A stretch of 64,000 nucleotides of DNA from a virus: positions 112,696 to 176,695 of the IMG/VR virus record IMGVR_UViG_3300044627_004527. The stretch is one strand, 5' to 3'. The notes under the pieces were generated by a model that worked only from the letters and a program-made list of their open reading frames with translations, made no database searches and was not told the origin of the DNA. Made by a program: the position numbers and the translations under genes. Positions 3,324-23,089 of the stretch are shown here, piece after piece (position 1 is the first letter of the stretch; each line of letters opens with the position of its first letter).

Positions 3324-5258
3324 ATGAGCAAGATCATCCAGAGCAAAGTGATCGAGAGCCTGGATGGGGAGGCCGGAGGCAGACAACCCACGCGCAGAGG
3401 CATCCTGGAGTCTACGGCGCATGGGCCGCTGATCGTTGTGCCAAGGCAGATCGAGAAGCAGGATCTACCAAAGATCGTCAAGCACATCGCTGACAGCGAG
3501 TCTGACTTCGCTGACATCCTGTTCGATCAGGAGGCGCTCGACCGGATGAACCGCCTCGGGCGCAAATGGGAGTGGGAGCCTTATCAGCGCTTCTACTTCG
3601 ATCTTGTGATGGGGATGATCACCAACAAGCCTCGCCAGGTCGGTCTGAGCCTCGCCGCTGCCGTGAAGTATTTCATCGTCGCGATGATGAGCAATACGAC
3701 CTTCACGGCTATCTTTGTATCCTATAAAAAGGAAGAGGCGATCAACAAGATCAACTATGTGCGGCAGATTATGGACTGTCTGCCGCCCGAGTTCCGCAAG
3801 CCGATCAGCCGCGACCCCCTCCAGATGATCGAGTGGATCAACCCATCAAACGGCACCAAGGCTCGCATCATGAGCCACGCCCAGAAGCCGATTCGTGGTC
3901 TGACCGCCAACAAGATCCTGTTCGACGAGTTCGCGTTCTTCACGCTCGCCAACACCATCTACGAGTCGGCGGTTCCTGCTCTCGGCCAGACTCGCGGTAC
4001 AATGGACATCATCTCTACGCCGTTCGGCAAGGGTGGACTGTACCACGACATCTTGTCTCTTGAGTCGCAGTATCCAGACTTTCACCGTATGCACCTCAAC
4101 TGGTGGAACTGTCGAATCTACCTTGAGGATTCGAGCCCAGAGGGCATGGCGCTTGCGGCTGAGCAGGCCGAGCACATGACAACCGAGGAGCGCGTCGAGG
4201 CATTTGGCAGCGACATCCTCAAGAAGCAGTGGCGTGCGGCCATCAGCACAGACTCTTTCCGCCAGGAGTTTGAGGGCGAGTTCCTTGATGAGGAGGCTGC
4301 GTTCTTCCACAAGGAGCTCATCTTCGACTGCATGTTCGATCTGCCGACCGATATGGAGACTGACTACCAGCCCGATGATCAGGACGACTGGATCGATCCA
4401 AAGACTGGCGCGGCCATGACGGCTGAGCAGGTCTTCGACGATATGCAGGAGGGTATGTCTGGCCAGATCGACCTGCTTGGCATCAACAGGGTGCGCTATA
4501 CTCGCATCGAGGATCTGTTGCTCGGGGTTCACCAGGGTATTGTTGGAAGATACCTGTATGCTGGTTACGACGTGGGCGCGACGCACCACAGCGCTGTGCT
4601 GGTCGTCCTGGAGGAGTTCAGGATGCCAGACGGCGCCACCTTCCAGATCGAGCGCCTGAGAGAGAAGTTTGATGGCCTTCTGCTCAAGGAGCAAGAGGCG
4701 AAGCTTATGCAGCTCATGAGCTACGGCATCATCCGAAAGCTCAATATCGACGCCACCGGCATCGGTATGCAGATGGCTCAAAATCTGAAGAAACGCTACC
4801 GCAGCAACGTGGAAGAGTGGCAGATGGGCGGCACCGCCAAGAAGAAGGAGCTGCTCGCCACAAACTTCAAGATCCGAATGGAGCATCAGACGATCGGCAT
4901 CTTCTTCGACAAGGAGACGGTCGATCAGCTCTACGCGATCAAGCGAAAGGTCCGCGCGAACAAGACGGTCGTGTATGAGGCTGACGAGAAGGTTCGTCAC
5001 CACTCAGACATCGCCTGGGCGTTGATGTTTGCCAGCCTGGCTGGAACAAAGGCCTCAGCGCAGAGGTTGACGGTGAGTCGCAACATCTTCAGGCCTCAGA
5101 TCGAGAAAGAACGAGACACGAAGCCCAACATCTTCGGCAAACCTGCTCGCAAAGCAGGCCCTCTGGATGCGGTCCTCGCAACTCCTCTCGGTAAAAGCCC
5201 CGGTGGCTTGGCGCCCCAAATTCATGGTCAAGGCCTAAAGAACCCCTTCAGTAGGTGA
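3324..5258 (+). CDS. terL: terminase large subunit (ATPase and nuclease), 644 aa
   Basis: This is the motor that pumps DNA into the prohead and cuts concatemers. The N-terminal ATPase has the atypical Walker A KPRQVGLS (about residues 102-109, in place of GKS/T) and Walker B ILFDEFAF (D201, E202). The C-terminal RNase H-like nuclease shows three acidic motifs: YAGYDVG (D416), LNIDATGIG (D476) and HHSDIAWAL (D562). The order and length fit the family. The start at ATG 3324 is preferred over an upstream in-frame ATG at 3225, which would overlap the previous gene by 98 nt. The gene is followed after 3 nt by the portal gene. The Walker A variant ending in G-L-S is unusual but known types with degenerate loops exist. 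Confidence 0.95.
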   Translation: MSKIIQSKVIESLDGEAGGRQPTRRGILESTAHGPLIVVPRQIEKQDLPKIVKHIADSESDFADILFDQEALDRMNRLGRKWEWEPYQRFYFDLVMGMITNKPRQVGLSLAAAVKYFIVAMMSNTTFTAIFVSYKKEEAINKINYVRQIMDCLPPEFRKPISRDPLQMIEWINPSNGTKARIMSHAQKPIRGLTANKILFDEFAFFTLANTIYESAVPALGQTRGTMDIISTPFGKGGLYHDILSLESQYPDFHRMHLNWWNCRIYLEDSSPEGMALAAEQAEHMTTEERVEAFGSDILKKQWRAAISTDSFRQEFEGEFLDEEAAFFHKELIFDCMFDLPTDMETDYQPDDQDDWIDPKTGAAMTAEQVFDDMQEGMSGQIDLLGINRVRYTRIEDLLLGVHQGIVGRYLYAGYDVGATHHSAVLVVLEEFRMPDGATFQIERLREKFDGLLLKEQEAKLMQLMSYGIIRKLNIDATGIGMQMAQNLKKRYRSNVEEWQMGGTAKKKELLATNFKIRMEHQTIGIFFDKETVDQLYAIKRKVRANKTVVYEADEKVRHHSDIAWALMFASLAGTKASAQRLTVSRNIFRPQIEKERDTKPNIFGKPARKAGPLDAVLATPLGKSPGGLAPQIHGQGLKNPFSR

Positions 5259-5261
5259 GCT

Positions 5262-6917
5262 ATGCAAGAAAATGATCTGAAGCTGTTGAGCCTGTATTGT
5301 GGCTCGCAGAGCTGGCTCACCCCGGAGGTCGCGACGAATCACTTCGTCAGCGTCTCCGGCGATCGTGACGTCAAGGGTCCAATGGATGCCCTCTTTGATG
5401 CCATGAGCCCGAACGGTTTGCTTCGCAAGAAGCGAGTCGTCAAGAAGACGGCTTACGATCTCAACGATCCCAAGCCGTCTGACATGCGCGAGCGCGCTGT
5501 CAACAATCGTGGCACCAGTGAGCCCGAGCTGGAGATCTACAACCCTCTCCGCTACGATCTCTACACTTACAATGAGATGATCGATGATGACACCATCCGG
5601 TTGTCAACTCAGATCATCGTGGGCTTCATCAGCAAGCTTGGTTTCCGTGTGCGCAGCTCTGACCCTCGCGTCGCCGCTGTCGTCCGAGCAGCCTTGGAGC
5701 CTGTGTTCGCTCAGCTCATTCGAGACATGGTCCGAGAGGGCCTGAAGAACGGCTTCATGTTCTCTCAGAAGGTCTGGGGCAGAAAGCGGGTGACCCTGAC
5801 TGACAAGTCATCTCAGGAGAAGGAGATCATCTATCAGGGCTACATGGTATACCCTGAGAAGATCAAGACCCTGAACCCGAACAATCGCTTCAGGTTCTAC
5901 CTTGACACAGTGGCTGATGAGATCGTCCGCGTCGAGCAGAACGTGGGCATGACCAATGAGACGTTCTGGCGGCACCAGCTTGTCTGGTTTGCTCTCGACA
6001 GGACTTACTCTGGTGTCTGGGGCAACTCTCGATACAAGAGCGCCTACAAGCCCTGGTTCTACTTCGGGGCGACGATGATCGCGCTCCTGCAAAAGCTCGC
6101 CAAGACCGGTGATCCGCCCGTAGTCGTCGAGTTCCCACCGGGCGAGACCGATACGTCTGATGGCCCACGCCAGAATGACGAGATCGCGCTGGACATCCTT
6201 GAGCAGGCGATGACCAACAAGGCAGTCGCTCTCCCGAGCGAGCGCGACGAGAAGTCTGGCGAGCCGCTCTGGAACATCAAGTTCCTTGAGATCTCGAATG
6301 CTGATGTCAGCAACTATATGACAGTGCTGGATCTTCTGGAGAAGCAGAAGGCCCAGTCTCTCGGTGTATTCGGTGCATTTGTCGGCAAGTCCAACTTCTC
6401 TGAGCTCGATGCGAAGGAAGATCTGGTCATGATCACGGTCGAGGACATCGTCGATCAGATCGAGCAGGTGGTCCGTGTTGACGTCGTCAACCAGATCATC
6501 GCCTACAACTTCGGACCGAAGCGTATTGACGAAGTTGAATTTGAGATCGATCGCAATAGTCTTGGTAGATCCAAGATGATCAAGGAGATCCTCAAGTCGT
6601 CCATGCAGATTCAGTCGAGCTATGCGGCTCTTGGCTACATGGCTGACGCAATGCCGGACATCAAGGCCATGTGCAGCGACCTCGGGATTCCGTTCCGCAG
6701 CCAGCTCTCTCAGCTTGAGGAGCGTTCCAGCTCGACCATTGAGGCTGAGAAGCAGAAGCAAGCCGAGAAGCAGCAGCAGGCTCAGGCGCAAGCCAAGCAG
6801 GCTGCTCAGAGCCAGGATCAGCGCAACGAAGCCTCCAACGATCCAGACAAGCGGACGCCTCAAAAGCGTGATCGAGTCCGCGACGCAAAAGATAAAGACA
6901 TCACGGAAGGTGAGTGA
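5262..6917 (+). CDS. portal protein, 551 aa
   Basis: The portal forms the dodecameric ring through which DNA enters and to which the tail attaches. The call rests on position right after terL, on length, and on sequence features: a helical N-terminal clip/stem region around residues 90-160 (TRLSTQ-type start, REGLKNGFMFSQKVW), a central wing-like region (WGNSRYKSAYKPWF), and a long Gln/Ala/Lys-rich coiled-coil tail at about residues 485-540. It resembles the DUF935/Mu gp29-like portal group. A weak AGGTGAG precedes the ATG. The stop overlaps an alternative GTG of the protease gene. I did not see any split or frameshift. Confidence 0.8.
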   Translation: MQENDLKLLSLYCGSQSWLTPEVATNHFVSVSGDRDVKGPMDALFDAMSPNGLLRKKRVVKKTAYDLNDPKPSDMRERAVNNRGTSEPELEIYNPLRYDLYTYNEMIDDDTIRLSTQIIVGFISKLGFRVRSSDPRVAAVVRAALEPVFAQLIRDMVREGLKNGFMFSQKVWGRKRVTLTDKSSQEKEIIYQGYMVYPEKIKTLNPNNRFRFYLDTVADEIVRVEQNVGMTNETFWRHQLVWFALDRTYSGVWGNSRYKSAYKPWFYFGATMIALLQKLAKTGDPPVVVEFPPGETDTSDGPRQNDEIALDILEQAMTNKAVALPSERDEKSGEPLWNIKFLEISNADVSNYMTVLDLLEKQKAQSLGVFGAFVGKSNFSELDAKEDLVMITVEDIVDQIEQVVRVDVVNQIIAYNFGPKRIDEVEFEIDRNSLGRSKMIKEILKSSMQIQSSYAALGYMADAMPDIKAMCSDLGIPFRSQLSQLEERSSSTIEAEKQKQAEKQQQAQAQAKQAAQSQDQRNEASNDPDKRTPQKRDRVRDAKDKDITEGE

Positions 6918-21537: not shown

Positions 21538-21813
21538 ATGAGTCATCTGCAACCGCTCCGCGATCGTATCCTCGTTCGCCCCATCCCCTTCGAGTCGAAG
21601 ACTGAGGGTGGCATCCTCCTCGCTGCGCCCATGTACTCCGACGTTCGTCAGGGCGAAGTGCTGGAGATCGGACCCGGCGTCAACAAGGATCTGGTCCATC
21701 AGGGCGACGTCGTCCTGTACCCGGTCCACACTGGCAAGGAGATCACCTTCCAGGGCGTCGACACTGTCCTGCTCGATGAGTATGACTGCCTCGCGGTAGT
21801 CTGCAAGCACTGA
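21538..21813 (+). CDS. groES: GroES-like co-chaperonin, 91 aa
   Basis: The sequence LQPLRDRILVRPIPFESKTE, then GGILLA, then GEVLEIGPG and a final strand EYDCLAVV match Cpn10/GroES over its full length. GroES caps the GroEL chamber; phages that need to fold a difficult capsid protein (T4 gp31) bring their own. A strong AAGGAG lies 7 nt upstream of ATG 21538. It lies inside the tRNA island between tRNA-Pro and tRNA-Ser, so it is probably transcribed early from the promoter at 20373. The residues between the mobile loop ends (FESKTEGG) are short, which may tune it for host GroEL. Confidence 0.92.
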   Translation: MSHLQPLRDRILVRPIPFESKTEGGILLAAPMYSDVRQGEVLEIGPGVNKDLVHQGDVVLYPVHTGKEITFQGVDTVLLDEYDCLAVVCKH

Positions 21814-21986: not shown

Positions 21987-22047
21987 CTGTAACCTGCGCC
22001 CGACACCAGGACGCCATTCCAACACATCGCCAACCGAAGGTAATGCG

Positions 22048-22983
22048 ATGAATTTGTAGACGAAGTTCTATGTGATCGTTCGAGAGGATCTCGGTTCTGT
22101 GGGCTATCAGACGGCTCAGGCAACTCATGCCGCCATCGACTACTGCATGATGGAGCAGCCCACTGAGTGGTGGAAGCTCTCCAACAGGCTCGTGGTCCTG
22201 ACGGTGGCTGATGAGGCCAAGCTCTTCGCGCTGTATGATCAGTGTATGAAGCTCGGTCGCAAAGCCATCCTCTTCTGTGAGCCCGATACTGGCTATCAAG
22301 CCACCTCGCTCGCTATCGAGCCCTCAGACGTGCCGGGACCCGATCTTGGCCGTCTGCCCTTGGTTGGTAAACGAGTGGCTCCTGAGGCTCGCCAAGAGGT
22401 CAGAGAGGCCCTGTGTAAGAAGATGGAGACTGCTCGCCAGAACGACAAGCAGACCATCATGGCGCACGGTGTGTCGGTCAAGGACCGAGCCTTCTCGATC
22501 GTCTCGGCGCTCTCGACTGGAGAGCATGGCATCTGGTCTGAAGTCCTCCCCGAGTCGATGCTGACTGGCAAGTTCGGTCAGTATCTTCTCGACCATCGTC
22601 ATCCGGCGCAGACGATCTGGAACTACACTCTGTTCCACGACTGCGGAAAGCCGGACTGCATGGTGCTCGACGATGATGGCCGCAGACACTTCCCGGAGCA
22701 CGAGAAGGTCAGCAGCCAGGTCTGGCAGGATCTCGGTAGCGGCGACGAGGTGCGGCTCATGTCCCTGGACATGACGTTGCACAGGATGAAAGCTGATGAG
22801 TTCGACAGCTTCATCAAGTCCGCAAATAAGCAAGACATCTGCACGCTTCTGTTGGTGTCTTATGCTGAGATCGTCGCCAACGCGCTTGATAACGATCCGC
22901 TCGGTCTTGAGAGCGTCTCTTTCAAGATCAAGAAAAAGCACCTGGATCGGTTGACAAAGAAGATCGAACGGTGCTATATGTGA
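22048..22983 (+). CDS. PTH2-type peptidyl-tRNA hydrolase fused to HD domain, with in-frame TAG at codon 4
   Basis: From ATG 22048 the frame reads M-N-L-TAG-T-K-F-Y-V-I-V-R-E-D-L. A good GAAGG Shine-Dalgarno sits 7 nt before this ATG. After the TAG the frame is open to 22983 (308 codons). Residues after the TAG match PTH2: KFYVIVREDL, then the helix TAQATHAA and the strand region KLGRKAILFCEPD; these enzymes free tRNA from stalled peptidyl-tRNA. The C-terminal half has an HD motif (FHDCGKP, then HFPEHEKVS), a metal-dependent phosphohydrolase fold. If the TAG is not read through, translation could start at GTG 22072, losing most of the first strand. It lies among the tRNA genes, 36 nt upstream of the CUA tRNA. 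The domains are convincing; the recoding is an inference. Confidence 0.75.
22951..22980 (+). promoter_or_regulatory. sigma70-like promoter at the end of the PTH2-HD gene
   Basis: TTGACA (22951-22956), an 18-nt spacer and TATATG (22975-22980) lie at the 3' end of the coding sequence, 39 nt upstream of the CUA-anticodon tRNA. It would give that tRNA its own transcription start. Confidence 0.65.
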
Positions 22984-23018: not shown

Positions 23019-23089
23019 TCCTGGCTGGTGTAATGGCAGCGCAGAGGCTTCTAACCCCTCTAGTGCCGGTTCGACCCCGGCGCCAGGAA
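23019..23089 (+). tRNA. amber suppressor tRNA, anticodon CUA
   Basis: Acceptor TCCTGGC/GCCAGGA, D stem GTG/CGC, T arm GCCGG-TTCGACC-CCGGC, discriminator A. Anticodon stem GAGGC/CCCTC (23044-23048, 23056-23060) encloses the 7-nt loop TTCTAAC, so CTA at 23051-23053 is the anticodon, with the normal T33 and A37. Pair 31-39 is C-C, as in tRNA-Phe here. The D arm (TGGTGTAATGGCAGC) closely resembles tRNA-Gln(UUG) at 23420, so it may insert glutamine at UAG. Confidence 0.85.

Follow-up and report, generated by a model that had tools for sequence, protein, structure and literature searches.

The gene under study lies on the plus strand of the window (the whole 64,000-nt stretch of viral DNA that was analysed) and is followed by a tRNA gene. 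Read through an in-frame amber codon close to its start, it would encode a protein with a PTH2 (peptidyl-tRNA hydrolase 2 fold) domain and an HD domain. The features at the locus are these:

22036 to 22040, plus strand: Shine-Dalgarno sequence GAAGG, 7 nt upstream of the ATG at 22048, from the sequence
22048 to 22050, plus strand: ATG, start codon of the putatively gated gene, from the sequence; homologues share the position
22048 to 22983, plus strand: PTH2-HD frame with readthrough, 311 codons including the TAG; the real stop is the TGA at 22981-22983
22057 to 22059, plus strand: in-frame amber TAG, codon 4, followed by A (ACG), from sequence, conservation and context
22063 to 22326, plus strand: PTH2 domain; Pfam PF01981, E 3.5e-7; fold match to 2zv3 and 3erj
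22072 to 22074, plus strand: GTG inside the first PTH2 strand, an alternative start, rejected; homologues have no start there
22384 to 22980, plus strand: HD domain; profile match to PDB 3wfo, E 1.6e-4, and fold match
23019 to 23089, plus strand: suppressor tRNA with anticodon CUA at 23051-23053; Rfam tRNA, 46 bits, and alignment with CUA phage tRNAs

From 22048 the window reads ATG AAT TTG TAG ACG AAG TTC TAT GTG (M-N-L-TAG-T-K-F-Y-V), and the frame 3' of the TAG is open over 307 codons and ends in TGA. The initial annotation had placed the amber codon correctly, but it passed directly from there to KFYV and omitted the threonine between TAG and lysine. Its claim that the best ribosome binding site points to ATG 22048 is borne out by the position of the GAAGG, as GTG 22072 has no comparable Shine-Dalgarno sequence. 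In the AlphaFold model of the product (mean pLDDT 93), the first PTH2 strand is formed by residues 3-8 after the TAG; GTG 22072 is residue 5, and a start there would lose half of the strand. The RNA structure at the start codon was nothing unusual (z -0.21), and a search near the PTH2-HD gene found no promoter-like site. Within the tRNA array of the window, positions 21538-21813 hold a 91-aa open frame that by eye resembles a GroES-type co-chaperonin.

The PTH2 domain matched PF01981 with 30.9 bits against a cut-off of 23, and Foldseek matched it to archaeal PTH2 structures, with a probability of 1.00 for 2zv3. The HD domain is closest to that of A-adding tRNA nucleotidyltransferase by both profile and fold match (3wfo), and the metal-binding pattern H...HD...D is present, with H43, H100-D101, H121, D144 and H148 invariant in A1. 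In the profile alignment, the GKGK of 2zv3, which is the canonical PTH2 catalytic lysine motif, aligns with a stretch that has no conserved Lys. The canonical catalytic lysine is therefore not evident, and PTH2 hydrolase activity stays putative. Because the folds of both domains (PTH2 and tRNA nucleotidyltransferase-like HD) point in this direction, we infer that the product handles tRNAs, presumably by peptidyl-tRNA hydrolysis and/or tRNA 3'-end phosphohydrolysis. Its two folds are those of archaeal PTH2 and of the tRNA nucleotidyltransferase HD domain, but the phage proteins differ from both in that the domains are fused or adjacent, no canonical PTH2 lysine is apparent, and there is no nucleotidyltransferase domain.

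The tRNA gene begins 35 nt 3' of the PTH2-HD stop codon. ARAGORN labels it Arg(UCU), which would make it the second UCU tRNA in the genome of the window by that program (two tct calls in total). The Rfam alignment puts CUA at positions 34-36, with one non-standard stem pair, and locus L066 has a CUA phage tRNA with the identical GGCTTCTAACCCC loop; a covariance model search also supports a CUA suppressor. The earlier proposal of a CUA tRNA close behind the gene thus holds on the Rfam alignment and the L066 loop.

Homologues were collected by tblastn, which found relatives in 24 phage records, and by an alignment scan of viral contigs, which found 80 loci; the resulting set comprised 96 loci, or 65 clusters at 80% identity. 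When the locus itself was compared with phages by megablast, nothing matched, and scanning viral contigs with a single protein turned up one relative only, while the PTH2 alignment was too poorly conserved for contig scanning. The homologues are fused PTH2-HD genes, fused HD-PTH2 genes or split genes, and nearly all contain an in-frame stop, usually at codon 3-5 after the ATG. Where the start has a strong Shine-Dalgarno sequence, the stop is codon 3 in 27 genes, codon 4 in 31, codon 5 in 10, and codon 6-8 in 6.

Comparison with related phages, the check suggested with the initial annotation, found the early TAG across the homologues, including every one from the cultured GenBank phages pT24, BF, CBB, GAP32, XacN1, ME3, Arash, RAS14, XbC2 and Kaldavass. 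The gene of Tenacibaculum phage pT24 starts ATG AAA TAG and that of Serratia phage BF starts ATG ACG CAC TAG, with another TAG inside the separate HD gene of BF. In XacN1 and RAS14 the domain order is reversed (HD-PTH2), and the genes nonetheless start M-K-TAG. Fused genes have one early stop each, and split genes often have one per gene (for example L038, L043, L047, L057, L079, L100 and L101), as in the L038 pair with ML-TAG and MS-TAG. A second, internal TAG at codon 47 of the HD gene (L010, 4441-4443) is conserved in BF, GAP32, CBB, XbC2 and Kaldavass. In a 735-kb phage (L175, LR756501), the PTH2 gene at 5001-5300 has MS-TAG as well as an internal TAG, and there are two CUA tRNAs; wider TAG recoding is possible in this phage. 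Two PHROG families correspond to fragments of the homologues cut at in-frame stops: phrog_34073, of 77 aa, and phrog_26054, of 46 aa. Both are apparently annotation artefacts, which would amount to a systematic misannotation of these proteins.

Early TAGs are more frequent than other frames would lead one to expect. We counted ATG codons with a strong Shine-Dalgarno sequence that are followed by a stop no more than 8 codons on and then by 60 or more open codons. The PTH2/HD family yielded 74 TAG, 4 TGA and 0 TAA; the remaining frames at these loci, pooled with the other parts of the window's genome, yielded 10 TAG, 32 TGA and 5 TAA. In these statistics related genes count separately to some degree, kinship being only partly corrected. 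One of the 10 TAGs outside the family belongs to a divergent PTH2 gene (L070). An early TAG without an alternative start was found in none of 903 neighbouring frames, and the window's genome contained no other convincing gene with an early in-frame TAG. Within the family, TAG is the first stop after the domains in just 2 of 122 cases. Of the 83 early-TAG genes, 65 have A directly after the UAG and none has U, compared with A after 37 of 139 terminal TAGs (p 4e-14, uncorrected for the tree); 36 of the UAG-A cases read TAGATT, in PTH2 and HD genes alike. An A after UAG raises amber suppression (PMC6266110). The PTH2 genes of phiM12, Baka, Sandalphon and SCTP-2 have no in-frame stop before the domain, and no CUA or UCA tRNA was detected in these phages.

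ARAGORN called CUA tRNAs in 55 of 94 loci. Further tRNAs came from pattern searches across whole records, from manual reading and from a covariance model based on 46 CUA tRNAs, which brought the clusters with a matching suppressor tRNA to 53 of 65. The tRNA often lies no more than a few kb away, and for 35 of these 53 it is an ARAGORN call inside the fetched locus. No suppressor tRNA was found for the other 12 clusters, of which 5 are short contigs and the large ones include L020, L023, L071 and L077. CUA tRNAs with shortened D arms lie just upstream of the gene in L032, L033, L035, L039, L043, L051, L057 and L064. Those of L032, L033, L035, L039 and L051, which have odd or short D arms and lie some 200 nt ahead of PTH2-HD, were missed by ARAGORN, as was the one of L064 (5847-5919), whose D arm is likewise shortened or odd. 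In L129, from the phage of L067, the CUA tRNA at 1417-1542 has an insertion of about 50 nt in the D-loop region, possibly an intron.

Three independent lineages, namely L097, L072 with L091, and Agrobacterium phage Atu_ph07, have TGA instead of TAG. In L097 the TGA occupies codon 4 in the PTH2 gene and codon 5 in the HD gene, whereas in L072 and L091 it is codon 3 of HD. Full scans of these three metagenomic records (L097, L072 and L091) found 2, 2 and 1 UCA tRNAs, respectively, and no CUA among their 104 tRNAs, and all three retain Trp-CCA. Each TGA lineage has a TAG relative with CUA (L098, L101 and Phosso), and in a quick PTH2 tree of few columns the TAG/TGA state changes three times.

Atu_ph07 provided a fresh test, its PTH2 genes having been inspected after its UCA suppressor tRNA was known from a paper in which the target was only guessed (PMC6102473). 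One of them reads AAAGG-7 nt-ATG ATT GGC GAA CAC TTT TGA ATT and lacks any alternative start; the phage does have the UCA tRNA. In its relative, Sinorhizobium phage Phosso (74% identity), the gene starts ATG AAG TAT TAG, and there are two CUA tRNAs and no detected UCA tRNA. Both phages agree with the pairing. Comparison across these lineages thus shows that the stop codon tracks the suppressor anticodon, UAG with CUA and UGA with UCA.

Exceptions to the pattern are L074, L166, L167 and L023. In L074 the HD gene contains no stop at all and the PTH2 gene lacks its N terminus (5480-6010); the contig has two CUA tRNAs, and the system is possibly a decayed one. The HD genes of L166 and L167 have no early stop, and no CUA tRNA was seen in the fetched loci; of these two homologues, one sits in the record of a Pseudomonas megaplasmid and the other in a Crocinitomicaceae MAG. 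In L090 an ATG directly follows the TAG. Mycobacteriophages of the Bxz1 group (about 190 hits), represented by LRRHood (L173, GQ303262, 2483-2863), and Myrna (L174, 2474-2836) have ATG/GTG-TAG-GTG ahead of PTH2, and a CUA tRNA lies 130-310 nt downstream. Gating is ambiguous in LRRHood and Myrna because the Shine-Dalgarno spacing fits the GTG just after the TAG. A search for HD in Atu_ph07, LRRHood and Myrna found none.

Suppressor-tRNA gating of the PTH2-HD gene is, with high probability, the best explanation of these patterns, judged from sequence comparison. The initial annotation had itself named a sequencing error and a start at GTG 22072 as alternatives. An error or pseudogene might be suspected in a metagenomic record, but the same feature recurs in cultured phages and dozens of contigs and the frame is intact for 307 codons after the TAG, so that the chance of either is negligible. 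Translation beginning 3' of the TAG, with the upstream ATG-TAG as a leader or chance occurrence, is very unlikely. A GTG does exist at 22072, LRRHood and Myrna offer a well-spaced one, and GenBank annotation uses internal starts, for example in pT24; but relatives contradict this reading, as 73 of the 83 early-TAG genes have no ATG, GTG or TTG between TAG and domain. Moreover, the Shine-Dalgarno sequence precedes the ATG, the GTG would delete half of strand 1, and the TGA/UCA pairing would be unexplained. The claim that a full-length product needs UAG readthrough is accordingly upheld by the conserved TAG, the absence of alternative starts and the joint change of stop and anticodon.

A change of code across the whole genome, with TAG (code 15) or TGA (code 4) reassigned, is conceivable, given that code-15 jumbo phages with CUA tRNAs exist (PMC13037316, PMC9523058) and that LR756501 has its second, internal TAG. 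It is nevertheless most improbable, since of the 167 long frames that the window's genome contains 23 end in TAG, TGA terminates 38 of 123, 55 of 209 and 201 of 362 in the TGA phages, and early stops elsewhere are at chance level. Relatives, intact frames and ordinary TAG and TGA stops thus led us to reject error, pseudogene, GTG start and recoding. A neutral ratchet, in which the suppressor exists for another reason, TAGs drift in and the tRNA becomes indispensable, would give readthrough without regulation. That codons 3-8 accept any residue and that some copies have an internal TAG instead would suit it. Drift, however, predicts scatter over many genes, whereas the stops are restricted to one gene or operon, occur in both genes when these are split and whatever the domain order, stand in a favourable UAG-A context and switch together with the anticodon. 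We consider the ratchet unlikely, though the least so of these alternatives. Selection of the early stop as a feature of one gene or operon, decoded by the phage's own suppressor tRNA, is strongly supported by the genomic comparisons.

Under gating, ribosomes would start at ATG 22048, reach the UAG at codon 4 and stop there unless the phage CUA tRNA encoded 35 nt downstream has been transcribed, matured and charged, in which case the PTH2-HD enzyme would be made. As the early stop is decodable by the phage's own tRNA only, the enzyme is apparently made only when that tRNA works. The gate would hold back the enzyme until the set of phage tRNAs has become active, and would tie its dose to the charged suppressor tRNA, possibly creating negative feedback on tRNA or peptidyl-tRNA stress. 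With two or three codons before the UAG, di- or tripeptides would be released and failed attempts should be cheap. The purpose of the gate would then be timing or feedback. Of the feedback switch suggested initially, the dependence on the phage suppressor tRNA has gained support from conservation, missing alternative starts and matched stop/anticodon changes, while the loop back onto the tRNA pool is only plausible.

In code 15 phages (crAss-like and jumbo), a phage CUA suppressor likewise decodes in-frame UAG, but there many genes have many TAGs, whereas here TAG and TGA are ordinary stops and a single one lies by the start of a tRNA-handling operon. Pyrrolysine and selenocysteine decoding also uses a dedicated tRNA to read a stop codon in few genes; the inserted residue is functional, whereas the phage stop stands near the N terminus, at a position that varies, tolerates different residues and precedes more than one kind of domain. 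Viral programmed readthrough is a regulated bypass of a stop codon that usually relies on near-cognate host tRNAs and adds a C-terminal extension, unlike a virus-encoded cognate suppressor with nearly the whole protein after the stop. In engineered suppressor-tRNA feed-forward loops, a nonsense codon (UAG or UGA) makes the target depend on the suppressor tRNA (PMC7969014; PMC13276491). Those loops are synthetic and transcription-induced, whereas the phage case is natural and conserved and its target is itself a tRNA-handling enzyme. The open-access literature that was searched yielded no natural precedent of such single-gene control.

Suppressor tRNAs have been reported in many large phages, and the authors describing XacN1 (PMC5852040) and Summit (PMC9022506) sought a target and found none. 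A CUA suppressor is also described for Ralstonia phage RsoM2USA (PMC8504454). The XacN1 gene has TAG at codon 3, and its annotated start lies downstream of that stop, which is why it was overlooked. The suppressor target is now likely identified for XacN1 and Atu_ph07. There may be an even chance that this is a widespread natural switch, in which, through a nonsense codon by the start, the synthesis of a tRNA quality-control enzyme reports how much of a dedicated suppressor tRNA is charged and acts back on the pool of tRNA or peptidyl-tRNA, and a main reason why many large phages carry suppressors. The gated gene would be a natural counterpart of engineered suppressor-tRNA circuits and would couple the state of the phage tRNA pool with the translation of a tRNA-handling enzyme. 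It would give phage suppressor tRNAs a concrete job and make their role directly testable.
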